Below, one piece after another: positions 6,206 through 45,889 of a stretch of DNA of 64,000 bases. This DNA comes from Psychrobacter cibarius (GTDB taxonomy: Bacteria > Pseudomonadota > Gammaproteobacteria > Pseudomonadales > Moraxellaceae): NCBI GenBank assembly GCA_030686115.1, contig CP131612.1:1488001-1552000 (forward strand). Reading direction: 5' to 3'. The position numbers were made by a program, and so were the translations under genes. The notes under the pieces were generated by a model that saw only the letters and a program-made list of their open reading frames with translations, made no database searches and had not been told where the DNA came from. The first letter of the stretch is position 1; each line of letters starts with the position of its first letter.

Positions 6206-6761
6206 TATGCATAAAAATTTGGCTGATTTGAGTCTTGAAACGCTAAAAAAGCAGACGCCTGAACAGTTGCAAACACAATCTGTGACGGCAGTATTATTGG
6301 CTTTAGGCAGTAATTATCAAGCTGAACATTATCTGCCGCTTGTCCGAAAGGATCTAGCGGCGCTAGGGGGAATACAGTTATCTACTGCATTTGAAAATCC
6401 TGACTTTACATCGACCGAAGCGCAACCAAAGCCCGATTATACCAATCAGTGCGTTTATTTGCGCTTAGTAGAGCCCATGACACTGCAACAGTTACAGCAG
6501 GTTTTTAAAGATCTTGAAGGTGACTGTCATAGGCAGCGTCTAACAGAAGCTCAGACGCCAATAAAAAAAGTTACGATGGATATCGATATTCTATTGATAG
6601 AAACGCTATTAATAGAAGTTGTTTCTGATGAAAATAGCCTAAGCAAAAATAAGGATTTTGAAAAGTCTAATTGGATTGTAATGGCAGACCGTTACCCATT
6701 CAAAGCGCATGAAAGAGCAGGGGTAGAGGAGTTGATTAAAGGTCATTTTTTAAAAGGTTAA
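6195..6761 (+). CDS. Divergent HPPK-like protein (FolK family)
   Basis: A 188-residue protein with the start of a HPPK (6-hydroxymethyl-dihydropterin pyrophosphokinase) fold: VLLALGSNYQAEHYLP, then PDYTNQCVYL and the metal-binding MDIDILLI, so the two catalytic aspartates are retained. The usual arginine-rich GRxRxxxxGPRTLDLDI loop has become HRQRLTEAQTPIKKVTMDIDI, and the C-terminal family block (HPRxxxRxFVLxPL) is missing or unrecognisable. It may be an active but relaxed FolK, a non-catalytic partner of FolB, or a second copy with a canonical folK elsewhere in the genome. The 11-bp overlap with folB supports a role in pterin or folate metabolism. Two ATGs (6195 and 6198) are possible starts. 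Confidence 0.7.
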   Translation: MMHNMHKNLADLSLETLKKQTPEQLQTQSVTAVLLALGSNYQAEHYLPLVRKDLAALGGIQLSTAFENPDFTSTEAQPKPDYTNQCVYLRLVEPMTLQQLQQVFKDLEGDCHRQRLTEAQTPIKKVTMDIDILLIETLLIEVVSDENSLSKNKDFEKSNWIVMADRYPFKAHERAGVEELIKGHFLKG

Positions 6762-6840
6762 ATGAAGCAGCCCAGATGCTATTCTAAATAAATAAAAGTT
6801 ATTGAGGACACGCTCAAGTGTTTTTCTTAAAACCTCTCAA

Positions 6841-6866
6841 AATAAAAGCTGAGCAAAATGCCCAGC
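6841..6866 (-). terminator. Terminator behind the SDR gene
   Basis: Read on the minus strand, GCTGGGC-ATTTT-GCTCAGC (one G-U pair) is followed by TTTTATT. It lies just past the stop of the SDR gene and fits an intrinsic terminator. Confidence 0.6.
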
Positions 6867-6899
6867 CTATATCACATTTAAAAAGTTTAACTATGACGC

Positions 6900-7634
6900 C
6901 TACTGTGCCGTCAAACCACCATCAACGACAAACTCTGAACCCGTCGAGTAGCTTGAGTCATCTGACGCTAAAAATAGCACCATGCCGCTGACTTCTTCGG
7001 GCTGAGCAACACGTCTCATCGGAATAGTTTTAGCAAATGCTTCAACCGCATCTTTGGTATCGCCTTGCATAATCATCGGTGTGGCGATGACGCCTGGATG
7101 AATGGAGTTCACGCGAATGCCATGAGGGGCACACTCTAATGCTGCCGCTTTGGTCATACCGCGTACCGCAAACTTAGAATCGGTATAGCCGATAGCGCCG
7201 CCAACCAAGCCATTAATTGATGAGATATTGATAATAGAACCTTGTTTGGCGGCTTTCATCGTTGGAATGACTGCTTTCATGCCTAAAAAGACCGACACCT
7301 GATTAATCTCTAGAATCTTGCGATACGCTTCTACTGACGTATCTAAAATAGATTTGTGCGTAGTGATACCTGCATTATTAACCAGTACATCAATTCGACC
7401 AAATTTTTCCTGTGTTTCTTTAGCGACTTGCGCCCAATCATCTTCATTGGTGACGTCATGTTTGATAAATAACGCATCAGCGCCAAGCTCTTTTGCTAAT
7501 GCGTCGCCTTTATCAGAATTAATATCGGTCAAGACGACTTTAGCGCCTTCTTGCATACACAAACGTGCATGAGTCTCGCCCATGCCTTGGGCGGCACCTG
7601 TGATAATAATAACTTTATTCTGTAAACGCGCCAT
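6900..7634 (-). CDS. SDR-family NAD(P)-dependent oxidoreductase
   Basis: A classical short-chain dehydrogenase/reductase of 244 residues. The cofactor motif TGAAQGMGETHA (TGxxxGxG) is near the N-terminus, followed by NNAG, then the catalytic Ser in NISSINGLVG and the YTDSK (YxxxK) pair. The C-terminus SEFVVDGGLTAQ is like that of 3-alpha/20-beta-hydroxysteroid, glucose and cyclohexanol-type dehydrogenases. The substrate cannot be told from sequence. The reading frame extends to 7724, but the ATG at 7634 has a clear upstream AGGAAAA and starts the protein at MARLQNKVIIITG, the family N-terminus. It is transcribed divergently from the DUF924 gene. Confidence 0.88.
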   Translation of the reverse strand: MARLQNKVIIITGAAQGMGETHARLCMQEGAKVVLTDINSDKGDALAKELGADALFIKHDVTNEDDWAQVAKETQEKFGRIDVLVNNAGITTHKSILDTSVEAYRKILEINQVSVFLGMKAVIPTMKAAKQGSIINISSINGLVGGAIGYTDSKFAVRGMTKAAALECAPHGIRVNSIHPGVIATPMIMQGDTKDAVEAFAKTIPMRRVAQPEEVSGMVLFLASDDSSYSTGSEFVVDGGLTAQ

Positions 7635-7808
7635 GAGTTTTCCTATTTTTTTAGTTATGAATAATGAAAGAGTATAGGACACAATCGCTAAATGCTCCTT
7701 AGTGATTATGAAACCAAAAGTCAATGCTTGATGCTTTTAAAAGATAGTTTTAAACATAGCTTTGAATAATGCTTTTGGCTGACTTTTTTTAAATAATGTA
7801 GTGAGGAA

Positions 7809-8354
7809 ATGATGTACAACGACATATTAAATTTCTGTTTTGATAAGGTGAGTAGTGAGAAGTTTTTTAAGAAAGACATAGCGTTTGATCAATTATTAAT
7901 AGAGCGGTACAGCGATATACTTGAGCAAGCGACGGATGCAGAGTTTTATACATGGCGAAGCAGCATAAAGGGGCGTTTAGCAGAAATTATTATATTGGAT
8001 CAATTTTCACGCAATATTTACCGTGATACGCCAGCAGCTTTTGCCCAAGATGCGATGAGTCTCGCGCTCGCGCAAAAGGCAGTGGCTGCCGGTGCATTAG
8101 AGACACTTGAAACGATGGATGAACGTAAGTTTTTATTGATGCCTTATATGCACAGCGAATCAAAACTGATTCATCAACAAGCAGAAAAGCTATTTAAGCA
8201 GTATACCAATGCAGATACTGTGGATGCTGAGCTTAGACATAAAGTGATTATGGATCGTTTTGGTCGTTATCCGTATCGTAATGACATCTTAGGGCGGGTT
8301 TCGAGTAGCGAAGAAATAGCGTTTTTGACGCAGCCTGACTCGTCTTTTTTATAA
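7809..8354 (+). CDS. DUF924-family protein
   Basis: A 181-residue member of the DUF924 family, a helical TPR-like fold without a settled function. Recognisable family features are the N-terminal DILNFCFDK, the central LAEIIILDQFSRNIYRDTPAAF and the later FLLMPYMHSE and DRFGRYPYRN. It begins at ATG 7809 or 7812 behind GTGAGGAA. It stands alone and gives no operon clue to its role. Confidence 0.85.
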   Translation: MMYNDILNFCFDKVSSEKFFKKDIAFDQLLIERYSDILEQATDAEFYTWRSSIKGRLAEIIILDQFSRNIYRDTPAAFAQDAMSLALAQKAVAAGALETLETMDERKFLLMPYMHSESKLIHQQAEKLFKQYTNADTVDAELRHKVIMDRFGRYPYRNDILGRVSSSEEIAFLTQPDSSFL

Positions 8355-8412
8355 ATATTGTTTGTCAAATGGCTAGTCAGTAAAGCGCTATTTATCAATT
8401 GGTTAAAATGTA

Positions 8413-8436
8413 AAAAGAAGCCATTTGGCCTCTTTT
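8413..8436. terminator. Bidirectional terminator between the DUF924 gene and cysE
   Basis: AAAAGAAGCC-ATTT-GGCCTCTTTT (one mismatch in ten pairs) has A- and T-rich flanks on both sides. It lies between two convergent genes and can serve both. Confidence 0.65.
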
Positions 8437-8464
8437 GTATTCATCATCGATTATAGCTAGCAGA

Positions 8465-9406
8465 TCATTTCTGTTCAGTACCTGCTACATTCATATCAGC
8501 ACGACCAATCACATCGATATCCTCTAAGCATAATTTATCATACTCTTTTTTACAAAAGTCAGGATCGATTTTGCACATGGCTGTTTGTAGTTGATCGAGG
8601 CGATTTTCTGATTGCTGAATGTGTTCGAGCATTTTAGCAAACGCCTCTGCAACGGGATCTTGTGAGGTTGGATCGATACCATAAGCTTGAAAAGCAGTTT
8701 CGCGTGCTGAGCGGTTGGTGGCTTTTTCATCTATTGATTTTTTATCTACTGCCTTTTTATCTATGCCATTATCTGTAGAAGCAGCTTGCGCTACTTTTTC
8801 TTGCTGCTTGGCATCATCGACTTTTTTGACAATTGGATTGCCTTTTTCGTCGTGATGGTCTGATATCATCCGAGCAGCGCTGCCGACCATGGTCGCACCT
8901 GCTGGTACTGCCTTTACTACGACGGCATTTGAGCCAATTTTAGCGCCTTTACCGACAGTAAATGGCCCCAATACTTTAGCACCAGCACCAACGATAACCC
9001 CATCTTCTAAAGTAGGGTGGCGCTTGCCATTGTTCCAAGAGACGCCGCCAAGCGTGACCCCGTGATAAAGGGTCACATCATTGCCAATCTCTGCCGTTTC
9101 ACCAATAACGATGCCCATACCGTGATCAATAAAAAACCGTCGACCGATTTTGGCAGCAGGGTGTATCTCAATACCTGTGATGATACGTGAGCCATAAGAA
9201 ATCACTCGCGCAGCAAGCTTTTGCTCGTTTTGCCACAGACAATGGGCACCGCGATGTAGTATGAGCGCGTGGATGCCAGGATAAGTCAAGATGACTTCCA
9301 GACTATTACGCGCAGCAGGATCACGGTTAAATACCGCATCGATATCTTCTTTTAGGTCTTTTTTGATGCGTGAAAGTGATTTGAATAAGGCAGTTGGCAA
9401 TGACAT
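8465..9406 (-). CDS. cysE: Serine O-acetyltransferase with C-terminal extension
   Basis: Acetylates L-serine from acetyl-CoA to feed cysteine synthesis. The left-handed beta-helix hexapeptide repeats are clear: [53 protein letters not shown] and [21 protein letters not shown]. The core resembles the short EpsC-type SATs. About 110 extra residues follow: a Lys/Asp/Ala-rich linker ([14 protein letters not shown]) and then a predicted helical tail rich in charged residues ending near the stop. The upstream in-frame ATG at 9421 gives five more residues, but 9406 has AGGACAA at proper spacing. The extension may oligomerise or regulate the enzyme; that is inference. Confidence 0.9.
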
Positions 9407-32051: not shown

Positions 32052-33233
32052 CTATACTCTGAACATGGCTGCATTTGGGGTCAATCCGACATAAGCCATG
32101 CCAGCTTGCTCCATCCAATGTGGCTGCACGATACCATGTTGTAAAATAGCATGAATGTCTCGATGCGCTCTTTCTATTCTATGTTTTTTATATAGTGAGA
32201 CCGTACCAGCGACCGCATAAATTTCCGATACCATGGCTCTGGCTTCTCTCGCTGCCTCACAGGCTGCTGCCCACACATCAGCCAGCTGTATATCGGTAAA
32301 GGCATTCTGTTGCTGTGCTTCGTTCCATAATACCTCGACACTATTGTGTAATTGTGCGCGCCTAGACGCTAATAGTGTTTTGCTTTTAGCGATAGTCGCT
32401 TGTACTGCTGCACGATCACGCAAATCTGGGCTTTTACCGGGCGTTACTTTCTCAAGGCAAATTTGGATTAACTCATCTGTCGCTGCTTTTAAGACACCCA
32501 GCGCCATCGCTGCACAGCCAGCGGCATTAATACAGCCGATTGGTAGGCGGCTATACGCATTATCGATGGTGACAGGGCTATCAAAATCGACCGCATAACG
32601 CTCCTGCACAAACGCGTCTTTGATGACGATGTCGTGACTGCCTGTACCATTTAGTCCACCAACATGCCAAGTATCAATCACTTCCACATCTTTTTTTGGA
32701 ATAAAGAACAGCTTTAAATTTGCACCCGGTCCAAGGGTCGTAGGCGAGCCTTCGGATATTACCAAGCAGCGCAGCACAAACCAGTCTGCCAACTCACAAC
32801 CTGATACTAATGTCCATTGACCTGAGATCATATATCCTTCAGCGGTTTGTTTAGCAATCCCTTCAGGGCGTGCAGAGTTGGCATAGACATGAGAGGGGTC
32901 ACTGTATATCTCCTGCATACTAGGCTTGTCTAAAAATCGTCCAAATGTGCAAGCCAAATGGTTGTTCCAAACGATCCAAGCAACTGAGGCTTCAGCACTG
33001 GCTAGCGTCTCATAAACTTTTAATGTTTCTAAAGGGTTGCCTTGCCATCCTCCCAACGATTTTGGCAGTCCCATCCTAAATAGCGACAACTCTGACAGCT
33101 TTTTGACCACTATCGGTGCAATTTTTCTACAGGTTTCTGTTTCTTCTCTAGCCGATAGGGCTAAATCATAAATATCTTGAGCGGCCTGGGATGGTAGAGC
33201 GTCTTTGTTATTTGATAAAGGTGTATAACTCAT
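32052..33233 (-). CDS. Acyl-CoA dehydrogenase-fold flavin monooxygenase-like protein
   Basis: A 393-residue protein of the acyl-CoA dehydrogenase superfamily, in the branch of two-component flavin hydroxylases (group D, such as DszC and HsaA). Seen are FRMGLPKSLGGWQGNPLE, ASAEASVAWIVWNNHLAC, the flavin-binding block ISGQWTLVSGCELADWFV and, near the C-terminus, HRIERAHRDIHAILQHG. No catalytic Glu of true acyl-CoA dehydrogenases is obvious. No partner flavin reductase lies nearby. It sits on the edge of the tyrosine catabolic region, so an aromatic or sulfur substrate is possible. The frame opens at TTG 33242, but ATG 33233 with AAGG nine bases upstream is preferred. Confidence 0.75.
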   Translation of the reverse strand: MSYTPLSNNKDALPSQAAQDIYDLALSAREETETCRKIAPIVVKKLSELSLFRMGLPKSLGGWQGNPLETLKVYETLASAEASVAWIVWNNHLACTFGRFLDKPSMQEIYSDPSHVYANSARPEGIAKQTAEGYMISGQWTLVSGCELADWFVLRCLVISEGSPTTLGPGANLKLFFIPKKDVEVIDTWHVGGLNGTGSHDIVIKDAFVQERYAVDFDSPVTIDNAYSRLPIGCINAAGCAAMALGVLKAATDELIQICLEKVTPGKSPDLRDRAAVQATIAKSKTLLASRRAQLHNSVEVLWNEAQQQNAFTDIQLADVWAAACEAAREARAMVSEIYAVAGTVSLYKKHRIERAHRDIHAILQHGIVQPHWMEQAGMAYVGLTPNAAMFRV

Positions 33234-33602
33234 AATATCCAACCTTATTTTAATGAATAAAACAGTATGTTTATCTAAAATTAATTCTAAATTTGAGATA
33301 TAACAACGCCTATACCAAGAATAGCCAACAGTTGACTGCTATACAACCAATAATTTGCATATATGAAATATTATATTGAGATGAAAAGTAGAAGTGATGA
33401 TTCGATGAAATATTAAATACTATGTTTGGCTTAAGAGTATCAATGCTTTGCCTGTTTTCAGGCAGTCATTCGCTTTGATTGCTTTGTCTGAGCCCTGAGC
33501 CCAGCAATTATAAGGGCGTTTTGTTATTAAATTCTCTAATCATTTAATTTTCTAGTCATTTAATAGCAAAACACCCTTACTGAAAGCACTCTGTTTGATT
33601 GT
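33234..33602. other. Intergenic region with long hairpin
   Basis: 369 bp between two minus-strand genes. The half next to maiA holds the 22-bp inverted repeat described separately. The rest is AT-rich, probably contains the promoter of the flavin monooxygenase-like gene, and shows nothing else clear. Confidence 0.5.
33511..33579. repeat. 69-bp inverted repeat, possible terminator of maiA
   Basis: Arms of 22 bases begin TAAGGGCGTTTTGTTATTAA on the left and end AGCAAAACACCCTTA on the right, with only two mismatches, both G-U compatible in RNA. The 25-base middle contains a near-repeat of TCATTTAAT. It lies 24 bp past the maiA stop and could terminate its transcript; the size also fits a small palindromic element. 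Confidence 0.6.
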
Positions 33603-34253
33603 TTATTGAGACTTGGGCGCATCAGGCTGCATGCTAGGATCAGCGTCAGCAAAGGCTTTGAGCGTACGGCAATGCGTGTCAATTTCGACGATATTGGGAT
33701 AAGCACTTAAATCCACGTTAAAACGTCGCGCCGAAGAGACCTGAGGAATCAAATAGCAATCTGCAAAAGTAGGGCTGTCACCGTAGCAAAATTTTCCACG
33801 GCTTTTGTCTTTTGCTAGTATTTTTTCTAACGCCGCAAAGCCCTCACTCATCCAACGGTTGCACCACGCCATGACTTTTTCTTCGTCTACCGCCAGCTCA
33901 TTGCGTAGATATTGTAAGATACGGCGGTTATTAATCGGATGAATATCACAACCAATCATAGCGCTAATGGCACGTACTTGCATACGTCCAGCCGCGTCTT
34001 TAGGCAATAGCGGATTTTCAGAATGAACCTCTTCTAACCATTCTAAGATGGCTGGGCTTTGATATAGTAATAAATCATCGGTCTGTAAAACAGGCACCAA
34101 TCCTTGTGGGTTGAGTGATTTAAACGCATCTGCTAACTGCTCATCTTTTGCTAAATTGACCGAAATATAGTCATAGTCTAAGCCTTTGAGATTCATCGCT
34201 ATGCGAGTACGATACGAGGTGCTGCTGCGAAAGTAGCCATAAAGTGTCATCAT
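33603..34253 (-). CDS. maiA: Maleylacetoacetate isomerase (zeta-class GST)
   Basis: A 216-residue zeta-class glutathione transferase converting 4-maleylacetoacetate to 4-fumarylacetoacetate, using glutathione as cofactor. The active-site loop is FRSSTSYRTRIAMNLKG, with the SSxSxR serine-rich signature. NPQGLVPVLQTDD and YQSPAILEWLEE form the glutathione site, and FCYGDSPTFADCYLIPQV is the conserved C-terminal segment. ATG 34253 (or 34250) follows AAAGGAATTCACA. It diverges from the IclR gene across 139 bp, which suggests it is an IclR target. Confidence 0.92.
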   Translation of the reverse strand: MMTLYGYFRSSTSYRTRIAMNLKGLDYDYISVNLAKDEQLADAFKSLNPQGLVPVLQTDDLLLYQSPAILEWLEEVHSENPLLPKDAAGRMQVRAISAMIGCDIHPINNRRILQYLRNELAVDEEKVMAWCNRWMSEGFAALEKILAKDKSRGKFCYGDSPTFADCYLIPQVSSARRFNVDLSAYPNIVEIDTHCRTLKAFADADPSMQPDAPKSQ

Positions 34254-34392: not shown

Positions 34393-35280
34393 ATGCCAAG
34401 TAAATTACCCATTGAGCAAAACATGCCAGCAGCTGAAAGCCCTTTAGAAAATCCCGTGACAACCAATAAAAGTCAAAGTGGCGTCCAGTCATTGGAGATT
34501 GGATTGTCGGTGTTAGACGTTCTTATTGATCATAACGAGCCGATGATGCTAAAAGATATTGCGCAAGTGATGCAAATGCATCCAGCAAAGTGTCACCGCT
34601 ATTTGGTCAGTCTCATTCGTAAAAACTATGCACGTAAGCTTGATGATGGTCGCTACGGGCTAGGCGATAGGGTTAACACATTGGCAGCATTGGGGCGCTC
34701 TGGATTTAGTCAAAACAATATTTTAGAGCGGCTTACGCACATCGCTAATGAAATCAAAGACACCCTGAATTGCGGTGTGCAGATTGCCAAATGGTTTAGC
34801 GAAGGTCCTATTATTATTCAGTCCGTTGAACCAGATAGCCCGATTAGTATTATCACTCGTATCGGTTCACGTATGCCGCTGACGACATCGGCGACGGGGC
34901 AATTATTTGCCAGTTATCAGCCAGATGCCGTCATTCAGCCATTGGTCACAGCTGAATGGCAGACAGACAATGAAGCAATAATCACAGAAAAATGGCAGAA
35001 TTTCAGTCACTTGCAAGCCAAGATTCGTACCCAAGGCTATGCGACAGTGACGGGTGATATGCTCATGGGGATTAATGCCATTACGATTCCTGTCATAGTG
35101 CCGCCGTTTGTTAATAGCGCTGTTAATATATCTACTGTTAGTGGCAAAACTGCTAGCAAAGGACTACCACTAGAATACGCCATCACTATCATCGGAACGA
35201 CAGAGCAATTGCCCATGAGTGAGCAACACAACGTGGTTGAGCAAATACTAGCAATCGCGCAGCGTTATCAAATTGCGTAG
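34393..35280 (+). CDS. IclR-family transcriptional regulator
   Basis: A 295-residue regulator. The winged helix-turn-helix is at about residues 35-95 (LEIGLSVLDVLIDHNEPMML, DIAQVMQMHPAKCHRYLVSL). The C-terminal ligand-binding domain includes TRIGSRMPLTTSATGQLFAS, a typical IclR effector-site block. It diverges from maiA and probably controls the tyrosine/homogentisate genes around it; the effector is unknown. The polar N-terminal 25 residues are an extension. ATG 34393 has no strong ribosome binding site. Confidence 0.9.
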   Translation: MPSKLPIEQNMPAAESPLENPVTTNKSQSGVQSLEIGLSVLDVLIDHNEPMMLKDIAQVMQMHPAKCHRYLVSLIRKNYARKLDDGRYGLGDRVNTLAALGRSGFSQNNILERLTHIANEIKDTLNCGVQIAKWFSEGPIIIQSVEPDSPISIITRIGSRMPLTTSATGQLFASYQPDAVIQPLVTAEWQTDNEAIITEKWQNFSHLQAKIRTQGYATVTGDMLMGINAITIPVIVPPFVNSAVNISTVSGKTASKGLPLEYAITIIGTTEQLPMSEQHNVVEQILAIAQRYQIA

Positions 35281-35332: not shown

Positions 35333-35369
35333 TAAAGGTTGAATATCATTTAATGATATTCAACCTTTA
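35333..35369. terminator. 37-bp palindrome between iclR and the TRAP gene
   Basis: A TAAAGGTTGAATATCATT arm (18 bp) and its exact complement flank a single T. The right end includes the stop codon of the TRAP binding protein. It lies between converging genes and probably acts as a bidirectional terminator. Confidence 0.65.
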
Positions 35370-36422
35370 GACCATGCAGGCGCTACTTGCTGCTTTTGCT
35401 TTTTCGTATACATTATTAGCATCTAGACCAGTGGCATTCACTTCGTCAAGGTAATGCTGCGAGCCTTCCATTAATGGACCCTTCCAGTCTGGGTCATTGA
35501 GTGGGTTAGGAATATCGATCATGATATCGCCTTTTTCTTTAGCGGCAGCCATTGCTTTGGCATTACTGACGTCAAATACTTTGGAGACACGTGCTGCCAT
35601 CTCCGCCCCTGAATTGTCATCAATTACTTTCTTGAGATCATCGGGCAAATTGTCGTATTTCTCTTTATTCATACTGATAACAAAAGTAGAGTTATAAAAA
35701 GGAATGTTGGTGTGCGTATTGATTAACTCATCAAGACGAAATGCTTGAATGGGCTGCCAAGTAAAACTAAGTCCGTCAATGACACCGCGTTGAAGGGAAG
35801 TATAAGTATCACTGGCAGGCATGCCAACGGGCGCAGCGCCCGTCGCTTCGATAATGTGACTGGCAACCGCAGAAGGTTGGCGAATACGCAAACCTTTCAT
35901 ATCAGCTGGCGTGCGAATAGGCTTATCTACGGTATGCAGCGCACCTTGTCCAGTGCCTATCAGCGCTAGCAGGTGAGTATCTTCGTACTCATTTTTAATG
36001 ACACCATCATCATACAGTTTATGAAGTATGCAGCTCTGCTGCGGTGCAGTATTTGTGATACCTGGCAGCTCTACAATCTGCGTTAAAGGAAATCGCCCTG
36101 CTGTATATCCTTGCGCTTGCATACCAATATCAACAATACCTTTCGCGGTAGCATCATAGGTAGCACCCGGTTTGCTAAGAGTAGCAGAAGGGTAGATCTC
36201 AATCTTTAAGCGGCCTTTTGATTCTTCTTCAATTTTCTTTGCCCATGGCTGCAATGCTTCGGTGTTTATGTTGTCATTGGCAGTCATAAAGTGTGAGAAT
36301 CTTAGAGTAGTCACATCGCCTGTATCTACATCAGCGTTTACTGCTGGGTTGTTATTAGAGCAACCAGTCATTGCGATCGAGGTCGCTAAGAGTATTCCTA
36401 AAGGGGTTTTTATTTTCATCAT
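35367..36422 (-). CDS. TRAP transporter solute-binding protein, DctP family
   Basis: A 351-residue lipoprotein with lipobox AMTGC near residue 21. The mature sequence matches DctP-type periplasmic receptors for TRAP transporters: LRFSHFMTANDNINTEALQPW, GRLKIEIYPSATL, KPIRTPADMKGLRIRQP (with the carboxylate-binding Arg) and QRGVIDGLSFTWQPIQAF. Such receptors usually bind organic acids. The DctQ and DctM membrane subunits are not in the window, so this is an orphan here. Its place in the aromatic region suggests an aromatic or related organic acid, but that is inference. ATG 36422 or 36419 follows AAAGGATTCA. Repeat copy B lies 38 bp upstream. Confidence 0.88.
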   Translation of the reverse strand: MMKIKTPLGILLATSIAMTGCSNNNPAVNADVDTGDVTTLRFSHFMTANDNINTEALQPWAKKIEEESKGRLKIEIYPSATLSKPGATYDATAKGIVDIGMQAQGYTAGRFPLTQIVELPGITNTAPQQSCILHKLYDDGVIKNEYEDTHLLALIGTGQGALHTVDKPIRTPADMKGLRIRQPSAVASHIIEATGAAPVGMPASDTYTSLQRGVIDGLSFTWQPIQAFRLDELINTHTNIPFYNSTFVISMNKEKYDNLPDDLKKVIDDNSGAEMAARVSKVFDVSNAKAMAAAKEKGDIMIDIPNPLNDPDWKGPLMEGSQHYLDEVNATGLDANNVYEKAKAASSACMV

Positions 36423-36565: not shown

Positions 36566-37141
36566 TTACTCACCGACAGGCGCGACTTCTCTTGCTTCAG
36601 CCAGTTCTTCTGCATGTAAAAACTGGGTATGAGCTGGTGCGCGTTTGGTACGTGACCATTCTTCTAACATCTCATACTTCATGGCTTCAGTAATCATCGA
36701 GACTTTTTCTTCTGAGGTAATATCATCGTAGGTGAGTTCCATACGATGGCCATTAGGATCAAAGAAATAGATAGAATGGAAAATACCATGATTGGTCACG
36801 CCGACTACATCAATACCATTTTCTTCTAAATGCTTTTTTGCTGCTATTAAGGCATCACGGTCTTTTACCTTCATGGCTAAGTGTTGCACCCAATTTGGGG
36901 TATTCGGATCAAAACCCATTTCAGGCTGATTGGGCACTTCAAAAAACGCCAATACGTTGCCATTACCGGCATCTAAAAACACATGCATATAAGGATCAAA
37001 GGCTTTGGTCGAAGGCACGTGGTCTTCAGCGAATGCAAGGATGAAATCCATGTTTAGGTATTTTTGATACCATTCAACGGTTTCTTTGGCGTCTTTGCAG
37101 CGATAGGCCACATGATGGATTTTTTCAATTTTAAAGCTCAT
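36566..37141 (-). CDS. VOC-fold protein, candidate homogentisate ring-cleavage dioxygenase
   Basis: A 191-residue vicinal-oxygen-chelate protein with two beta-alpha-beta modules (about 5-70 and 83-140). A metal triad is visible: His10 in KIHHVAYRC, His87 in NWVQHLAMKV and Glu135 in GHRMELTYD, with Glu68 a possible fourth ligand. His122 in GIFHSIYFFDPNG is placed like catalytic residues of type I extradiol dioxygenases. The gene follows fahA on the same strand after 113 bp. All other genes of phenylalanine-to-fumarate breakdown are in the window but hmgA is not, so this protein may open the homogentisate ring. Alternatives are a glyoxalase-like or isomerase-type helper. The C-terminal 50 residues are charged and helical. 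Confidence 0.75.
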   Translation of the reverse strand: MSFKIEKIHHVAYRCKDAKETVEWYQKYLNMDFILAFAEDHVPSTKAFDPYMHVFLDAGNGNVLAFFEVPNQPEMGFDPNTPNWVQHLAMKVKDRDALIAAKKHLEENGIDVVGVTNHGIFHSIYFFDPNGHRMELTYDDITSEEKVSMITEAMKYEMLEEWSRTKRAPAHTQFLHAEELAEAREVAPVGE

Positions 37142-37254: not shown

Positions 37255-38556
37255 CTATTTGTCAAAATCAAAGCTAAGCGCGGGCAGTACTTTGCCGCGT
37301 ACTTCACCAAACCCGACACGAATGCCGTCTTTTTCGCTATAGCCTTTCATGATTACTGTGTCACCATCTTCAATAAAACTGCGGGTCTCGCCGCCTTTTA
37401 AAGTGACAGGTTTGGTCGCATTCCAAGCAATCTCTAACATTGAGCCATAAGAATCTGGCGTTGGTCCTGAAATCGTCCCTGAGCCCATCATATCGCCAAC
37501 TTCCACTTTACAGCCAGTGATGGTGTGGTGGGTTAGCTGCTGCGACATTGACCAATACATATGCTTGAAGTTGGTCTCACAAACCACAGTGGCGCTATCT
37601 GAGTTTTCAGGCAATAACTCAACTGATAGATGGATGTCATAGCTATTATTGCTGTCTTTTTCGTTTAGATATGCCAATGGTTTTGGCTCTTGAATCGGGC
37701 ATGCTGTTTTAAAAGGTGCCAACGCATCCATAGTCACAATCCAAGGTGAGACTTCAGAAGCAAAGGTTTTGGCATTAAATGGCCCTAAAGGCACGTATTC
37801 CCATTTTTGAATGTCACGGGCTGACCAGTCGTTGAGTAAAACCATGCCAAAAATATGCTCAAAGGCACTGTCTACTGCAATTGGTTGACCAATGCTATTA
37901 CCTTTACCAACTACAAAAGCAGTCTCAAGCTCAAAATCTAAACGCTTGCAGGCTGAGAAAATAGGGCGGTCGTCAGCGTTTGGCTTTAATTGACCAGAGG
38001 GGCGTATCACATCAGTGCCACTGACGATGACGGTGCTGGCGCGTCCGTTATAGCCGACTGGCATTTCAGTCCAGTTAGGTAGTAGCGCGTTGTTTGGATC
38101 ACGGAACATAGTGCCGACGTTGGTCGCATGTTCTTTAGACGAATAGAAATCGGTAAAACCTGGGACGTGAACAGGCAGATGCATGGTGACGTCTGCTTGA
38201 TTAAATAGCGCTTTTTTCTGCAAGTCTTGATTATCACGCAAGGCATCGCTAGCACTAGATAGTAGGGTTTGGATGGTTGAGCGTGCCTGCGTCCAATTGT
38301 CTCGACCAGAATCAATAAAAGCATTGAGCGTTGGTTGATCAAAATATGGACCGCCCTCTAAGCTCAGTAAACCTTCTGCTTCGAGCACAGCCAAATCCAA
38401 TACGTACTTACCGATAGCCACACCAGCGCGGCGCTTGTTATTACCAGCAGCGTCTTTGGCATTACTAAAAATACCGTAAGGTAGGTTGTGAATGGAGAAG
38501 TCAGAATCAGCGGCGATATCGATAAAGGATGTGAGGGTGTTGTCAATCTTTGACAT
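37255..38556 (-). CDS. fahA: Fumarylacetoacetase
   Basis: A 433-residue hydrolase that splits fumarylacetoacetate to fumarate and acetoacetate, the last step of tyrosine breakdown. The family N-terminus FSIHNLPYGIFS is followed by the catalytic segment FTDFYSSKEHATNVG and the metal-binding block LDFELETAFVVGKGN. Further conserved parts are WSARDIQKWEYVPLGPF and MMGSGTISGPTPDSYGSMLE. Its length matches bacterial and animal FAH. ATG 38556 follows AAGGAGCACC on the minus strand. The VOC gene lies directly downstream, so the two are probably one transcript. Confidence 0.96.
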   Translation of the reverse strand: MSKIDNTLTSFIDIAADSDFSIHNLPYGIFSNAKDAAGNNKRRAGVAIGKYVLDLAVLEAEGLLSLEGGPYFDQPTLNAFIDSGRDNWTQARSTIQTLLSSASDALRDNQDLQKKALFNQADVTMHLPVHVPGFTDFYSSKEHATNVGTMFRDPNNALLPNWTEMPVGYNGRASTVIVSGTDVIRPSGQLKPNADDRPIFSACKRLDFELETAFVVGKGNSIGQPIAVDSAFEHIFGMVLLNDWSARDIQKWEYVPLGPFNAKTFASEVSPWIVTMDALAPFKTACPIQEPKPLAYLNEKDSNNSYDIHLSVELLPENSDSATVVCETNFKHMYWSMSQQLTHHTITGCKVEVGDMMGSGTISGPTPDSYGSMLEIAWNATKPVTLKGGETRSFIEDGDTVIMKGYSEKDGIRVGFGEVRGKVLPALSFDFDK

Positions 38557-38809: not shown

Positions 38810-40006
38810 TCAGTCTTTTAAGACGTCTGCCATGGCATTGGCAACATAGTCGATGTTGCTGGTGTTCAGTCCAGCCACACACATACGTGAGTTGGAAACC
38901 ATGTAAATGCCAAACTCGCTTTGTAAGCGTTCGACTTGCTCAGGCGTCAGACCAGTAAAGCTAAACATGCCGTTTTGACGAGTAATATAGTCAAAGTTGC
39001 GGTTCGGGATTTTGGCTTCTAATACTGATTTTAGCTGTAAACGCATGGCTTTGATACGGTCACGCATCGCATAAACTTCGCCAACCCATTGCTTATGTAG
39101 TGCTTCGTCGTTCATAACGATATCGACCACACGACCACCATGTGATGGCGGGCTTGAGTAAATACGGCGTACGGTAGCATTTAGCTGACCGAAGACGCGC
39201 TCTGTCTCGTCAACCGTTGGACAAACAACTGATAGACCGCCGACACGCTCACCATATAGCGATAAGTTTTTAGAGAATGAGTTGCTGACAAACAATGGCA
39301 AGCCCATATCGACAGCTTTACGAATCGCATAAGCATCGCTGTCCATGTCTTCGCCAAAGCCTTGGTAGGCAATGTCCATAAATGGAATCAATTCGCGCGC
39401 TTGAATGACGTTCAGCACGGTATCCCATTGCTCACGGGTCAAATCTAGACCTGTTGGATTGTGGCAACAAGGATGCAGCAAGATCACATCATTTTTGTTC
39501 AACGTCTCAAAAAACGCAATCATTTCATCGAACTTGATGCTGCTGTTGGCTTTGTCGTAGTACGGGTATTTACCCACTTCGACATCAGAGCCTTCAAAAA
39601 TAGCAATGTGGTTGCCCCATGTTGGATCACTCACATAGCATTTAGATTGTGGGAACCATTCATGGATGAACTCAGCGCCGACTTTTAACGCGCCAGAACC
39701 GCCAATCGTAGCGATAGTGGCGACCAAACCATCTTTTAAAATCTGTGCGTCTTTACCGAACAGTAATTCCTGACAGCCTTTACGATGTCCTGGTAAGCCT
39801 GCCATCGGCAGATATGGACGCGGCGCAATAGGATCGGCAATGCGTTCTTCGGCTATTTTTACACAGTCAAGTACAGGCAATACACCATTTTCATCATAAT
39901 AAATACCAATGCCTAAATTGACCTTTTTAGGATTGTTATCTGCTGTATATTTTTCCATCAGCCCTAAGATTGGATCACCAGCGTAATAGTCGATACGTTC
40001 AAACAT
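38810..40006 (-). CDS. tyrB: Aromatic amino acid (or aspartate) aminotransferase
   Basis: A 398-residue class I aminotransferase of the AspC/TyrB group. The N-terminus MFERIDYYAGDPILGLMEKY and HPCCHNPTGLDLTREQW are typical; the PLP lysine is Lys246 in SNSFSKNLSLYGERVG. The neighbouring phhA, hpd and fahA suggest it converts tyrosine to 4-hydroxyphenylpyruvate at the top of the catabolic route. Separation from aspartate aminotransferase by sequence alone is uncertain. ATG 40006 follows AAGGAAAC. Confidence 0.9.
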   Translation of the reverse strand: MFERIDYYAGDPILGLMEKYTADNNPKKVNLGIGIYYDENGVLPVLDCVKIAEERIADPIAPRPYLPMAGLPGHRKGCQELLFGKDAQILKDGLVATIATIGGSGALKVGAEFIHEWFPQSKCYVSDPTWGNHIAIFEGSDVEVGKYPYYDKANSSIKFDEMIAFFETLNKNDVILLHPCCHNPTGLDLTREQWDTVLNVIQARELIPFMDIAYQGFGEDMDSDAYAIRKAVDMGLPLFVSNSFSKNLSLYGERVGGLSVVCPTVDETERVFGQLNATVRRIYSSPPSHGGRVVDIVMNDEALHKQWVGEVYAMRDRIKAMRLQLKSVLEAKIPNRNFDYITRQNGMFSFTGLTPEQVERLQSEFGIYMVSNSRMCVAGLNTSNIDYVANAMADVLKD

Positions 40007-40171: not shown

Positions 40172-41101
40172 TTAAGTATGCTGTAAGTCATTAAAATGAC
40201 TGGAAAAATAGCTCTGCAAGAAGTCTTTGAAAGCAATGGTAGCAGGCGATAACGCACGAGAAGAACGCTGATAGATAAAAAACTGCCGCATTTTAACGGG
40301 TTGTGCCAGCGGCCTCATTTGCAAGCCATTGGCGCTAACCCAGTCGATGACTTCGGGCATATAGGGCAAACATAAGGTAATGCCGAAGCCTTGACGGGTC
40401 ATCTCAAGGGCGGTGGACATAAAATTGACCTTGTAACGCGCCTGTTGAATATGACTGGCGATACGGTCGTCCAACTCGGCTGTCACTTGTTCAATGAAAG
40501 GGCCTTGCAGCGTGATGAGCGGAATGTCTAATAAATCCTGCCACGTTATTTCATATTTTTGTGCCAGCGCATGGTTGTCAGGCATCACCACACAAAATGG
40601 TAGCTGATATAACAAATCAGCATTGATGTCGTCCTCAGCCTCCATAAATCCAAGCTCAGTACCGACACCCAAATCTACTTCAATGTCCTGAATATGTCTG
40701 AGTAAGTTTTCTGCCGAACAATCTAATAACGACACGCCAATCTCGGGGTGTTGTTTGGAGAATTGGGCGATGACCGCTGGCATCGAAGAGGCGGCAAACT
40801 GCGAAACAGCAAGCCGGACTTGACCTTGCGCCAAGCTTGTTAGGCTGCTTGCCTCATTTTCAAAAAGCTGCATCTCATTCAAGATACGCCGTGCTTGCGG
40901 CAATAAATGCCGTCCTACTACCGACAACGACAACTGGCGGGTAGTACGGTCGAACAGCACAATACCGAGGCTGGACTCTAGCTCCTTAATCAAGCCGCTA
41001 ACGGCAGATTGGGTCAAATGCATCTGATCGCTGGCACGAGTAAAGCTGCCATTGTCAGCGACTTGGATAAAAGCGGTTAATTGGCGAATGCTGATATTCA
41101 T
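40172..41101 (-). CDS. LysR-family transcriptional regulator
   Basis: A 309-residue LysR regulator. The N-terminal helix-turn-helix is ISIRQLTAFIQVADNGSFTR and LTQSAVSGLIKELESSLG; the co-inducer domain follows. It diverges from hpd over 145 bp, so it likely controls hpd and perhaps the phhAB genes, possibly with a tyrosine-derived effector. The frame runs back to 41134, but ATG 41101 with CAGG upstream gives the standard LysR N-terminus. Confidence 0.9.
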   Translation of the reverse strand: MNISIRQLTAFIQVADNGSFTRASDQMHLTQSAVSGLIKELESSLGIVLFDRTTRQLSLSVVGRHLLPQARRILNEMQLFENEASSLTSLAQGQVRLAVSQFAASSMPAVIAQFSKQHPEIGVSLLDCSAENLLRHIQDIEVDLGVGTELGFMEAEDDINADLLYQLPFCVVMPDNHALAQKYEITWQDLLDIPLITLQGPFIEQVTAELDDRIASHIQQARYKVNFMSTALEMTRQGFGITLCLPYMPEVIDWVSANGLQMRPLAQPVKMRQFFIYQRSSRALSPATIAFKDFLQSYFSSHFNDLQHT

Positions 41102-41246
41102 AAGTAAACCTGATAAATAAATCATAAAAAACAATTAGTCTTATAAATAAACCTAATCTAATATAAATACATCGTCAATAAGAATTATTGATTGAAGACA
41201 TTTTTTATTGCATTTTTACCACCAATTGAAATTAAGGATGATTACA

Positions 41247-42347
41247 ATGGCAGATTTATTTGACAACCCAATGAGCCTAAATGGGTTTGATTTTGTTGAA
41301 TTCGCCTCACCTCAACCGGATGCGGTCGACGCATTGTTCAAACAGCTTGGCTTTGCCCATATCGCAAACCATCGCTCAAAAGATGTGGCGCTATACCGTC
41401 AAGGTGATATCAATCTCATTCTAAATCGTGAACCAAAAAGCGCAGCCAGCTATTTCGTTGAAGAGCATGGTGCTGGTGCTTGTAGCATGGGTTTTCGTGT
41501 GCAGAATTCCAAAAAAGCTTATGAGCGTGCCATCGAAATGGGCGCGCAGCCAGTAGACGTACCAACTGGTGTGATGGAGCTGCGCCTGCCTGCTATCAAG
41601 GGTATCGGTGGCTCACTGATTTATCTCATCGATCGTTATAAAGATGGTGAGTCTATTTATGACGTCGATTTCGAGTTTTTTGCTGATGTAGACCGTCGTC
41701 CTGTCGGGCATGGTTTTAAAGTTATCGACCATTTAACCCATAACGTTTACCGTGGTCGTATGGCTTATTGGGCAAACTTTTATGAGCGCATCTTTAATTT
41801 CCGCGAAATCCGCTTTTTTGACATCAAAGGTGAATATACGGGTTTGACCAGTAAAGCCATGACAGCGCCTGATGGCAAAATCCGTATTCCATTGAACGAA
41901 GAGTCAAAGCAGGGCGGCGGTCAAATTGAAGAATACTTGATGCATTTCAACGGTGAAGGTATTCAGCATATTGCTTTAGCCAGCAATGATTTGTTTGCCA
42001 GCATCGATAAATTAAAAGCAGCGGGTATCCCGCTCATGACTGCTCCAACCGCGACTTACTATGAAATGCTGAGTGAGCGTCTACCAAATCATGGCGAAAA
42101 TGTCTCTGAGCTACAGATGCGCGGTATCTTGTTAGATGGCACCACTGAAGGCGGCACACCGCGTCTGCTGCTACAAATTTTCTCTGAAACTATCTTAGGT
42201 AGCCCTGTTTTCTTCGAGTTTATCCAGCGTAAAGGTGATTACGAAGATGGCTTTGGCGAAGGTAATTTCAAAGCCCTATTTGAATCCATCGAGCGCGATC
42301 AAGTCCGTCGTGGCACGGTTGGTCAGCCAGAAACTGAAACACCGTAA
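41247..42347 (+). CDS. hpd: 4-Hydroxyphenylpyruvate dioxygenase
   Basis: A 366-residue non-heme iron enzyme of the VOC superfamily, making homogentisate from 4-hydroxyphenylpyruvate. The three iron ligands are visible: His in [13 protein letters not shown], His in [11 protein letters not shown] and Glu in [28 protein letters not shown] is a typical N-terminus, and [15 protein letters not shown] is the conserved C-terminal helix that closes the site. The frame opens at TTG 41208, but ATG 41247 follows AAGGATGATTACA at good spacing. It heads a plus-strand group with phhA, phhB and an antiporter gene. Confidence 0.97.
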
Positions 42348-42547
42348 GCGCCTCTACATTTAGGGAAAAATCCATAAAATAACCGGGCAGGGCAAAAGGA
42401 GTTTGTCTTGTCCCTAATAATCACTGCGCTCTGTAATGCCATGTGTTCAATGCGATGACTGGGCTATGGTTCAGTCATGATTGCGAACGAATAGCAAAAA
42501 CTCAGAGCGCTATTCAGAGTGCCAATGGCAATAAAAGGAATACAGGC

Positions 42548-43504
42548 ATGGAACGCCTACCACATACGAATTCTGTTAATAAAGCTATCGGTGCCAACAG
42601 CGTTGCTTGCAAAACGCTAGGCACTGATGCTGCCAGTCACGATGATTCTGCTCATAAAAAGCAGGATTCTATGCCTAAAAAACAACCTTACGTGTCGCAT
42701 CAGCCAGATAGCCATGGTCATATTCACTATAGTGATGATGAAAATGGTATGTGGCAGGCATTGCTTGAGCGTCAAGCCGAGCAAATACCCAATCGCGCCT
42801 GCCCAGCCTATCTAGACGGTTTAAAAAAACTGAATTTGCCCGCTATGCGTATTCCGCAATTGCATGATATCGATGCAGTATTGCAAGCCACGACTGGTTG
42901 GCAAACTGCCGCTGTCCCTGCATTAATCAGTTTTGGTAAGTTTTTTAAATTGCTTGCCAATAAATCCTTTCCAGTGGCAACTTTTATCCGTCGATTTGAT
43001 GATATGGACTATATCGAAGAGCCTGATATTTTTCATGAAATCGTTGGACATTGTCCGCTTTTGACCCATCCTGCCTTTGCGACGTTCAATGAAACTTATG
43101 GCAAGCTGGGTCTTAATGCCACTAAAGAAGAACGGTGGTTTTTGGCACGGCTCTATTGGTTTACCATCGAGTTTGGTTTGGTGGGACAAAATCAGAGCAG
43201 TCGCCGAATCTATGGCGGTGGCATTTTAAGCTCACCGTCTGAGACGGTTTATGCACTCAATGCTGGTTCTGAGCAGCAAGCAGAACCTCAGCATCAACCG
43301 CAAAATCAACCAGAGCACCGAGCGTTTGACTTGCTTGATGTGTTACGTACCCCTTATCGTATCGATCATATCCAGCCGATTTATTATGTCATTGATGATT
43401 TGGATACATTATTTGATATCGTCAATAGCGATATCATGGGAATGGTCAAACAAGCCATGTCGCTAGGATTGTTCGAGCCTAGTTATGCGGTGAAAAACGC
43501 CTAA
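42548..43504 (+). CDS. phhA: Phenylalanine 4-hydroxylase
   Basis: A 318-residue pterin-dependent, iron-containing monooxygenase that converts phenylalanine to tyrosine. The iron ligands are His163 and His168 in FHEIVGHCPLL and Glu208 in WFTIEFGLVGQ. RIYGGGILSSPSET is the pterin/substrate segment. The 55 residues before the catalytic domain are low-complexity and poorly conserved. The frame extends to GTG 42443, but ATG 42548 with AAAAGGAATACAGG is likelier. A Gln-rich insertion (QHQPQNQPEH) lies near residue 250. The phhB gene follows after 126 bp. Confidence 0.93.
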   Translation: MERLPHTNSVNKAIGANSVACKTLGTDAASHDDSAHKKQDSMPKKQPYVSHQPDSHGHIHYSDDENGMWQALLERQAEQIPNRACPAYLDGLKKLNLPAMRIPQLHDIDAVLQATTGWQTAAVPALISFGKFFKLLANKSFPVATFIRRFDDMDYIEEPDIFHEIVGHCPLLTHPAFATFNETYGKLGLNATKEERWFLARLYWFTIEFGLVGQNQSSRRIYGGGILSSPSETVYALNAGSEQQAEPQHQPQNQPEHRAFDLLDVLRTPYRIDHIQPIYYVIDDLDTLFDIVNSDIMGMVKQAMSLGLFEPSYAVKNA

Positions 43505-43630: not shown

Positions 43631-43972
43631 ATGACGACATTATCACAAGCCAGCTGTGAGGCCTGCCGCATTGGCGCGCCAACGGTCAGCGACATCGAAA
43701 CACAAGAGCTATTACAGCAAATTCCAGATTGGTCATTGATCGAGGTTGATGGCATCAAGCAATTACAACGTCAATATAAATTCAAAAACTTCGTCAAGGC
43801 GATGGAGTTTGCCAACCAATTAGCAGACATCGCCGAAGCAGAAGGGCATCATCCTGGCATATTGGTAGAGTGGGGTAAAGCCACCGTAACGTGGTGGTCA
43901 CACAGCATTAAAGGTCTGCATCGCAATGATTTTGTCATGGCAGCTAAGACCGATAGTCTGCTGGATCAATAA
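43631..43972 (+). CDS. phhB: Pterin-4a-carbinolamine dehydratase
   Basis: A 113-residue enzyme that dehydrates the 4a-hydroxy-tetrahydropterin left by PhhA so that the cofactor can be recycled. The active-site pattern is [27 protein letters not shown], shown here in parts as EAEGHHPGI and [12 protein letters not shown]. The length fits the PCD/DCoH family. ATG 43631 follows AAAAGGACATTATA. Its position directly behind phhA matches the phhAB order of pseudomonads. Confidence 0.95.
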
Positions 43973-44064
43973 TGAGGGTAGCAATCGCTATTGCAACTCA
44001 TTAAACTTGTCCGACTCAAAGCCAACCCTAACGCCAGATTTGACTGGCAAGCTAAGGATGTGTG

Positions 44065-45453
44065 ATGCCTCCAAAAATATTAACCCAAATTTCACCTCAA
44101 CTGGCATTTATGATTTCTGCCATTGTCATCGCTATTATGGGCGTTACCATGATAGGTTTTGGCTGGGTACCGCATTTATCATTGATACTCGCTATTTGTG
44201 TCTTGCTGGGCATTGGTCTGTTTAAAGGCTTGACCTTTGATGACATGCAAGCGCAAATGGCATCGGGTGTCATGCGTGGTATCGGTGCGATCTATCTATT
44301 CTTCTTTATTGGTTTGATGGTCGCCGCTTTAATGATGTCTGGTGCTATTCCAACGCTGATGTATTTTGGTTTTCAGTTGATTTCACCAGAGTATTATTAC
44401 ATTTCAGCCTTTGTATTGACCTCCATTATTGGTATTGCCTTGGGCAGTAGTTTGACCACCGCGGCGACATTGGGCGTGGCTTTTATTGGTATGAGTAATG
44501 CCTTTGATGCCAACGTGGCGATTGCGGCTGGTGCTGTGGTCTCAGGGGCGTTTTTCGGTGATAAAATGTCGCCGTTATCAGACACCTGTACCATTGCTTC
44601 ATCGGTGGTGGGTATTGATTTGTTTGAGCATATTCGCAATATGATGTATACCACGGTACCAGCGTGGATACTCACGGTCATTATTTTTTGGTTTTTCTCT
44701 GGGCAGACCGCAGGCTCTGACTTGAGTCAAGTAACCATATTGCAAGGTCAGTTGATTGAAAGTGGCTTGGTACATGGTTATGCGGTATTGCCATTTGTGG
44801 TACTGGTTGGGTTGGCGGTTTTTCGTGTCAATGCCATCTATACGATTATCTGTACCATTGTGGCAGCATTGATTATTACTTATTTGCACAGCTCGCCGAG
44901 TTTTGGACAATTAGGCGGCTATTTATTTGCAGGCTATGCACCAGCTGAATCGTTAGAGCTGGGTGAAGTCGGTGGTATGCTATCGCGCGGCGGTGTGCAG
45001 AGTATGTTCTTCACTCAAGCGATTGTGATATTGGCACTCAGTCTGGGTGGCTTGCTCACAGCATTGGGTATTTTGCCAGCACTGTTATCAGGGATTAAAG
45101 ACACATTAACCACATCAGGGCGCGCCATATTTGCCGCTGCCATGTCTGCTCTGAGTATTAACGTGCTTATTGGCGAGCAGTATTTGAGTATTTTATTATC
45201 TGGTACTGCCTTTCGTCCGACGTTTGAGCGTTTGAATTTACATCCTAAGAATCTGTCTCGTACCATTGAAGATGCAGGTACGGTCATCAATCCTCTAGTG
45301 CCTTGGAGTGTGTGCGGCGTGTTTATCAGCCAAGCATTAGGCGTGCCCGTGCTTGATTATCTGCCTTATGCGTTCTTCTGTTATTTATCGCTGTTACTAA
45401 CGATATTGTTTGGTTTTACGGGAATTACCATCAGCCGACTCAAGAGTCAGTGA
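44065..45453 (+). CDS. NhaC-family Na+/H+ antiporter-like permease
   Basis: A hydrophobic 462-residue inner-membrane protein with about eleven membrane segments. It matches the NhaC family (Na+/H+ and related exchangers such as malate/lactate antiporters) by GIALGSSLTTAATLGVAF, GAFFGDKMSPLSDT and ISINVLIGEQYLSI-like segments. It follows phhB by 92 bp, so it could move an aromatic substrate or balance ions in tyrosine catabolism; nhaC genes also neighbour tyrosine decarboxylase genes in enterococci. GTG 44062 precedes the preferred ATG 44065, which has AAGGA six bases upstream. Confidence 0.85.
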   Translation: MPPKILTQISPQLAFMISAIVIAIMGVTMIGFGWVPHLSLILAICVLLGIGLFKGLTFDDMQAQMASGVMRGIGAIYLFFFIGLMVAALMMSGAIPTLMYFGFQLISPEYYYISAFVLTSIIGIALGSSLTTAATLGVAFIGMSNAFDANVAIAAGAVVSGAFFGDKMSPLSDTCTIASSVVGIDLFEHIRNMMYTTVPAWILTVIIFWFFSGQTAGSDLSQVTILQGQLIESGLVHGYAVLPFVVLVGLAVFRVNAIYTIICTIVAALIITYLHSSPSFGQLGGYLFAGYAPAESLELGEVGGMLSRGGVQSMFFTQAIVILALSLGGLLTALGILPALLSGIKDTLTTSGRAIFAAAMSALSINVLIGEQYLSILLSGTAFRPTFERLNLHPKNLSRTIEDAGTVINPLVPWSVCGVFISQALGVPVLDYLPYAFFCYLSLLLTILFGFTGITISRLKSQ

Positions 45454-45538: not shown

Positions 45539-45889
45539 TTATACCCTTGCAATCATGACATTGTTGTCATTTAAGACAACCTGATAGGCATCCAGCATCA
45601 CGCTCTCATCATCTAAACACTGGCCAGTAGCAAGATTAAAGCGTTGCTTATAGATGGGTGAAGCCACATAAAGCACTTCTTCTGCTGTCCCTGTGTCATC
45701 TGTAACTGTGGTACCACCAATTAAACCTCGAGATAGCACATTGGCCTGACTGAATGGATCGTAATTATCAAGAGCAAATAAATCGTTCTGTCTGGTACGA
45801 AAAATAGCAATTTGTTTGCCATCTACCAGTGCGCACACACCAGTGTCAGGAATGATATCGTCAAGTGCACAAATAGTATGTTGGTTCAT
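45539..45889 (-). CDS. nirD: Nitrite reductase small subunit
   Basis: A 116-residue Rieske-fold protein of the NirD family, partner of NirB in NADH-dependent reduction of nitrite to ammonia in the cytoplasm. Typical sequences are IPDTGVCALVDGKQIAIFR and DNYDPFSQANVLSRGLIGG. It lacks the CxH...CxxH iron-sulfur ligands, as NirD proteins usually do. It starts at ATG 45889 behind AAGGATAACACCCC and follows nirB after 149 bp on the same strand. Confidence 0.93.
   Translation of the reverse strand: MNQHTICALDDIIPDTGVCALVDGKQIAIFRTRQNDLFALDNYDPFSQANVLSRGLIGGTTVTDDTGTAEEVLYVASPIYKQRFNLATGQCLDDESVMLDAYQVVLNDNNVMIARV

Follow-up and report, generated by a model that had tools for sequence, protein, structure and literature searches.

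Cupin-type HmgA and the VOC proteins have unrelated folds. Among enzymes with a VOC fold, PcpA and LinE cleave para-hydroquinones, comprise about 320 residues and use chlorinated substrates, while catechol 2,3-dioxygenase and L-DOPA dioxygenase act on ortho-diols. The closest described system is PDB entry 9U42, released on 2025-07-23 under the title 'Crystal Structure of Homogentisate 1,2-Dioxygenase from Acinetobacter in Complex with Zn ion', which was solved with Zn and in which the molecule is named 'Glyoxalase'. A publication describing this entry was not found in the open-licence literature. For A. baumannii, a type I ring-cleaving dioxygenase gene was placed between hmgC and hmgR in a 2020 report that, in the passages available, identified no hmgA homologue (PMC7646211). 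These passages also state that pigmented A. baumannii strains carry the VOC counterpart, and guess that its product has no dioxygenase activity; the position given there fits the VOC gene of our loci L020 and L021. The gene of the stretch studied here was accordingly not unnoticed, its A. baumannii counterpart, judged probably inactive, having been in print since 2020.

Two later papers on A. baumannii bear on the same genes. In strain DETAB-R21, insertion of Tn2006 in 'hmgA' goes with pyomelanin production, and a plasmid-borne copy abolishes the pigment (PMC9431530, 2022). The duplication printed there, CATTTTTTT, is termed 11 bp but consists of nine letters. Scanning all 19 Acinetobacter-like genomes of our sample with a VOC gene, we found that 12 carry CATTTTTTT in the VOC gene, starting from its nucleotide 76, as compared to four with it in fahA and one in maiA, the site itself being A/T-rich. 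Because this occurrence favours the VOC gene over fahA and maiA, the 'hmgA' in the available passages of that paper is most likely the VOC gene. In the second paper, the hmgA reference is a stretch of 633 bp whose sequence overlaps with the end of a 1308-bp hmgB (PMC11945678, 2025); this stretch by size and place would be maiA; as far as the accessible parts of these papers go, the name 'hmgA' appears to be used for more than one gene. A word search returned no homogentis- words in PMC9007349 and PMC3219624, and in PMC12718150 homogentisate occurs in a reference only.

We refer to the whole 64,000-nucleotide stretch of Psychrobacter cibarius DNA under analysis as the window. As the preliminary description had proposed, profile matches to phhA, phhB, a tyrB-like gene, hpd, maiA and fahA delineate a cluster leading from phenylalanine to fumarate and acetoacetate without HmgA (Table 1). 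Coordinates, ATG start and PF00903 match likewise agree with the 191-residue VOC reading frame that it had located behind fahA on the same strand; this frame starts 113 bp past the end of fahA. With the VOC gene taken for the ring-cleavage step, the phenylalanine/tyrosine route in the window is complete.

Table 1. Genes of the phenylalanine/tyrosine cluster and flanking features, in window coordinates.
Feature	Coordinates	Strand	Basis
Trimeric autotransporter adhesin, ~1750 residues	26550-31802	+	YadA head, stalk and anchor; extended signal peptide
Acyl-CoA-dehydrogenase-fold protein, beside maiA	32052-33242	-	HsaA / p-hydroxyphenylacetate 3-hydroxylase oxygenase-subunit likeness, far under cut-offs
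maiA, maleylacetoacetate isomerase	33603-34253	-	TIGR01262, 281.1 bits, cut-off 171.05
IclR-type regulator	34393-35280	+	PF01614/PF09339; between maiA and solute-binding gene
TRAP solute-binding protein (DctP), adjoins VOC gene	35367-36422	-	PF03480
VOC-fold protein, putative homogentisate 1,2-dioxygenase, not homologous to HmgA	36566-37141	-	PF00903; 80% identity to 9U42; six invariant residues
fahA, fumarylacetoacetase	37255-38556	-	TIGR01266, 585.5 bits, cut-off 375.3
tyrB-like aromatic amino acid aminotransferase	38810-40006	-	NF006719, 559.1 bits, cut-off 377
LysR-type regulator, divergent from hpd	40172-41134	-	PF03466/PF00126
hpd, 4-hydroxyphenylpyruvate dioxygenase	41208-42347 (as listed; true start may be ATG at 41247)	+	TIGR01263, 389.3 bits, cut-off 277
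phhA, phenylalanine 4-monooxygenase	42443-43504 (as listed; true start may lie further inside)	+	TIGR01267, 319.7 bits, cut-off 264.75
phhB, pterin-4a-carbinolamine dehydratase	43631-43972	+	PF01329
Na+/H+ antiporter-family transporter	44062-45453	+	PF03553
Rieske_2 domain protein, 116 residues, adjoins antiporter gene	45539-45889	-	

The genes accompanying the pathway vary among relatives. Homologues of the IclR-type regulator (39-48% identical) occur within the cluster in six of eight Acinetobacter-like loci (L019-L022, L029, L030), and some relatives have the antiporter gene together with the cluster (L013, L014, L017, L023, L024, L028). The DctP gene is missing between iclR and the VOC gene in L004, L005, L010 and L011; being present in some relatives only, it is probably not essential to the pathway.

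The cluster without HmgA could reflect a gene located elsewhere, an outcome that the preliminary description had named as speaking against its reading. Neither PF04209 nor PF20510 gave a match in the 3.43-Mb assembly of the organism itself (99.99% complete), and such a displaced HmgA was rejected; as a control for this search, of 14 control genomes Caulobacter alone gave a match. At 191 residues, and with Pfam matches that include no HmgA domain, the VOC protein itself lies outside the cupin HmgA class (PF20510/PF04209, about 430 residues). We extended the search to 149 genomes sampled within the family of the organism, which we take to be Moraxellaceae, and none had a PF04209 match. A gentisate-dioxygenase-like cupin was likewise considered as general ring cleaver and rejected: it was not found in the organism's own genome, no genome of the 149 has a match over the model cut-off, and full-length matches, all under the cut-off, occur in eight of them only, seven of these being VOC genomes.

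These data and those below make it very probable that the VOC protein cleaves the homogentisate ring in the phenylalanine/tyrosine pathway, replacing the cupin HmgA. Its membership in the VOC superfamily follows from the Pfam Glyoxalase model PF00903 (57.1 bits, cut-off 20.6), and its AlphaFold model (pLDDT 82) is VOC-like, with 9U42 as best solved match. Among the NCBIfam models (June 2026), none exceeded its cut-off for the VOC proteins tried, and the matches obtained were weak and scattered across models for glyoxalase, Fos and catechol dioxygenase proteins. Equivalogs rejected on this basis were YaeR (36.4 vs 140 bits), glyox_I (21.5 vs 120), Fos (at most 29.9 vs at least 171) and methylmalonyl-CoA epimerase (20.3 vs 114.95), as well as catechol 2,3-dioxygenase (32.2 vs 320.2) and HpaD (25.3 vs 321.4).

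The active-site residues point to type I extradiol chemistry. The His10, His87 and Glu135 triad of the preliminary description is found at the positions given there and, together with His53, His118 and Tyr125, is invariant in all 125 distinct close sequences (at least 55% identity, that of the window included); the same six residues are kept in nine of nine distant homologues. His87, His118, Tyr125 and Glu135 align with the H, H, Y and E of catechol 2,3-dioxygenase 1MPY, whereas His10 and His53 fall outside this alignment and were paired with H153 and H199 from their positions alone. For the full type I extradiol set (2-His-1-Glu plus His, His, Tyr), four residues are therefore placed by alignment and two by position. 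In assigning them, we assume that H153, H214 and E265 are the metal residues of 1MPY and H199, H246 and Y255 its second-sphere counterparts. Of note, His122, which had been suggested as catalytic base, does occupy the position named, but is a histidine in only 43 of the 125 close sequences and otherwise mostly K, Q or R; the invariant His118 is the better candidate for this role.

For the window's VOC protein, we infer which reaction it catalyses, which metal it binds and what part each of these residues plays. A divalent metal, probably Fe(II), would be held by His10, His87 and Glu135, with His53, His118 and Tyr125 as putative second-sphere and acid-base residues. Using metal and O2 in the manner of type I extradiol enzymes, the protein would open homogentisate between C1 and C2, yielding 4-maleylacetoacetate, which MaiA would isomerise and FahA then hydrolyse. 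Asp49, Asn62, Gln86, His132 and Arg133 never change within the close group and are present in 0 to 3 of nine paralogues, and in the C-terminal tail Pro169, His171 and His176 are each found in 123-124 of the 125 close sequences; these eight residues are candidates for homogentisate binding.

The invariance of the six catalytic residues also bears on the suggestion that the protein is a degenerate, inactive dioxygenase and that the pathway halts at homogentisate. Pigmented A. baumannii strains carry the gene, and the passages available of the 2020 report favour a product lacking activity (PMC7646211). However, conservation in 125 of 125 sequences fits purifying selection, maiA and fahA are retained in the cluster, and the plasmid complementation in the accessible part of PMC9431530 fits an active enzyme, provided that its hmgA is the VOC gene. 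We regard an inactive protein as extremely improbable.

Distant paralogues (31-38% identical) that keep the six extradiol residues were seen in L025, L026, L027, L043, L044, L045 and L053 (genome G254, 6740-9158), the last adjoining a gene for a FAD aromatic hydroxylase. They are possibly other ring-cleavage enzymes.

We next compared the occurrence of the genes within the family. A VOC protein at 59% identity or more is present in 55 of the 149 genomes, with a single match in each: 26 genomes of the window's own genus (Psychrobacter-like), 19 of group g15 and 10 of group g10; two further genomes (g13) contain distant VOC homologues only (32-40%). Group g15 is termed Acinetobacter-like because the 9U42 chain is 100% identical (rounded) against its genome G069. 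FahA exceeds the TIGR01266 cut-off in 45 genomes, which are exactly the 26 own-genus and 19 g15 genomes with a VOC gene, and by the printed coordinates fahA lies less than 1 kb from the VOC gene on the same contig in all 45. The Fisher p-value is 3e-39 for this 45/104 split, 2e-11 inside the window's genus alone (26 with both, 15 with neither) and 9e-29 when all 55 VOC genomes are set against FahA, values that are overstated because related genomes are not independent owing to shared descent. With this reservation of kinship, the association of FahA and VOC protein is far beyond chance.

HPPD exceeds its cut-off in 55 genomes of the family. Of these, 53 belong to the 55 VOC genomes; the other two, G099 and G108, lack both the VOC gene and FahA. 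The two VOC genomes outside this set are G103, whose HPPD is split over two contigs, and G112, which is 63% complete. Genome G099, from the same genus (L168, 9161-11613), has kept phhA, phhB and hpd and lost fahA and the VOC gene, and its tyrB is reduced to a 25-residue piece beside lysR; if 4-hydroxyphenylpyruvate is still made, this organism should build up homogentisate.

In group g10, no protein of the ten genomes scores above the TIGR01266 cut-off. Loci were examined for seven of these genomes (L013-L017, L028, L032), and each encodes, near the VOC gene, a protein of about 333 residues combining PF18288 and PF01557, here called FAH2. This shorter form, which no NCBIfam model names over its cut-off, stands instead of TIGR01266 FahA beside either VOC or HmgA genes (examples are L013:8428-9429, L059:7544-8545 and L139:7993-9126). 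The gene order hpd-VOC-FAH2-maiA is common in marine Gammaproteobacteria, e.g. in L059, L060, L062 and L064-L067. Among HmgA loci, the order is hpd-HmgA-FAH2-maiA in L139 and L153, hpd-HmgA-FAH2 in L141 and HmgA-FAH2-maiA in L140, and an FAH of either form adjoins HmgA in 9 of 13. As hpd-HmgA-FAH2-maiA and hpd-VOC-FAH2-maiA differ in this one position, HmgA and VOC share one operon slot, and the VOC gene fills the slot held elsewhere by HmgA.

This exchange is difficult to reconcile with the VOC protein being an accessory of the pathway, such as a lyase or an isomerase for a by-product (benzoquinone acetate or a glutathione adduct, for example), with the ring being cleaved by an unrecognised enzyme. 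The functional diversity of VOC proteins and the weak, scattered NCBIfam matches would accommodate such a role. An accessory should, however, occur beside HmgA as well, yet a close VOC gene was present in none of the 13 HmgA loci examined, and the two proteins rarely share a genome. The invariant extradiol residue set and the cupin search, which left no gentisate-dioxygenase-like enzyme in the organism's own genome and none over the cut-off in the family, also argue against it, and we consider an accessory function very unlikely.

The reading as ring-cleavage enzyme was followed beyond the family in a sample of 274 genomes of the class. In 13 of them, a VOC match reaches E 1e-15 or better; the identity is at least 57% in eight genomes, all of which lack HmgA. 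FahA exceeds its cut-off in 14 class genomes, of which eight have HmgA, four a close VOC protein, none both and two neither (Fisher p 0.015 for the HmgA/close-VOC split, the significance of which is overstated by shared descent). G361, with HmgA and FahA, also encodes a 36% identical VOC paralogue. The two genomes with neither, G254 and G371, contain a 38-41% VOC paralogue only; no pathway gene of the reference set lies near this paralogue, nor near fahA besides FahA itself.

In a scan with one genome per species, at least 591 of the 597 matched stretches listed encode a VOC relative. For the best 80 loci of the matches listed, which belong mostly to Gamma- and Alphaproteobacteria plus a few MAGs with other names, we counted neighbours within a 3-kb window: hpd is the commonest (61 loci), followed by FAH (37) and maiA (29), with any of these in 67 and none in 13. 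A wider tally over 8 kb takes in short loci as well, some of them duplicates of longer ones (L033-L045 of L046-L058), which is why the 3-kb figures are given for neighbours. Some of the 13 neighbourless loci end at contig ends (e.g. L099, L122); HPPD exceeds its cut-off elsewhere in the genome for ten of them, lies just under it for L119 and is lacking for L087 and L122. HmgA and HPPD were tested in 50 of the best 80 genomes, a selection made up of the named isolates, a range of MAGs and each of the 13 neighbourless loci; HmgA was found in one and HPPD over the cut-off in 46. The sole double is the Parvularcula MAG G426 (L079, L170), in which one contig carries HmgA next to FAH2 and another hpd-VOC; this is either a true double set or MAG contamination. 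In sum, the VOC protein takes HmgA's place in genomes with hpd and FAH, the exceptions being this MAG and the two FahA genomes with neither. In G286, the VOC gene is isolated and adjoins an M61 peptidase gene.

The predominance of hpd among the neighbours helps to weigh whether the VOC protein might be a dioxygenase for another para- or ortho-diol, such as gentisate, homoprotocatechuate or chlorohydroquinone, its place in the cluster being secondary. This idea draws on the 57% identical relative in G296 (L051, 5335-9571), which lies beside genes for a FAD aromatic hydroxylase and methylamine-dehydrogenase-like proteins, not beside hpd. Some FAD aromatic hydroxylases also yield homogentisate, and the G296 arrangement is perhaps a different feeder route into homogentisate, with FAH2 and maiA encoded about 15 kb from the VOC gene (L150). 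Given these genes as well as the hpd neighbours and HPPD counts above, another diol as the main substrate is extremely improbable.

Homogentisate thus remains the favoured substrate, and the VOC protein would fill the one missing step of a textbook pathway. Taking all data together, we think it likely that one single-domain VOC family is the standing homogentisate dioxygenase across much of the Gamma- and Alphaproteobacteria, swapping with HmgA in an otherwise unchanged operon while no Pfam or NCBIfam model names it, and that a central step of catabolism, with a para-diol as substrate, has come to employ the chemistry of type I extradiol enzymes. The family spans relatives of Psychrobacter and Acinetobacter, sphingomonads, relatives of Maricaulis, Woeseiaceae, Alteromonas, Colwellia, Oceanospirillum and others, and seems wider than annotation shows; a search of viral contigs found no close relatives. 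If this holds, the distant paralogues with the six catalytic residues would represent further, as yet unassigned ring-cleavage enzymes. Genomes with hpd and fahA and without hmgA need not be broken or pigment-forming, but probably use a different enzyme, and their annotation should be corrected. The system would offer a clear example of non-orthologous gene displacement within an operon that otherwise stays fixed and in which FAH also comes in two forms, and for studies of Acinetobacter pyomelanin it points to a gene worth examining.

Regarding known systems, the VOC-type enzyme has a precedent in one deposited structure, 9U42, and the breadth of the displacement is the new part; neither this breadth nor the operon-slot exchange was found in print in the open-licence literature. 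The Acinetobacter counterpart named in the preliminary description is indeed present in Acinetobacter-like loci, and its main proposal, a non-orthologous replacement of HmgA, gains support from the genomic test, the co-occurrence, the slot exchange and the 9U42 title. The 9U42 chain is 80% identical to the window's protein and 100% identical (rounded) to the L157 product, which falls in the same clade (clade support 0.958). This identity, the one match in each of 55 genomes, the common cluster and the clade argue for orthology to the 9U42 enzyme, and conversion of homogentisate to maleylacetoacetate would be the reaction of proteins of this type. The two settings differ in gene order, which is fahA-maiA-VOC in Acinetobacter-like loci and fahA-VOC with a separate maiA in the window. 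PcpA and LinE, VOC-fold enzymes for para-hydroquinones, were not among the matches listed, which excludes nothing. The L-DOPA dioxygenase of Streptomyces sclerotialus (6ON1/6ON3) provides the next best Foldseek matches at about 18% identity. Catechol 2,3-dioxygenase 1MPY shares the C-terminal H, H, Y and E with His87, His118, Tyr125 and Glu135, but comprises 307 residues as compared to 191, and the VOC substrate would be a para-diol. HmgA (PF20510/PF04209), by contrast about twice the size of the VOC protein, would carry out the same reaction from the same slot between hpd and FAH.
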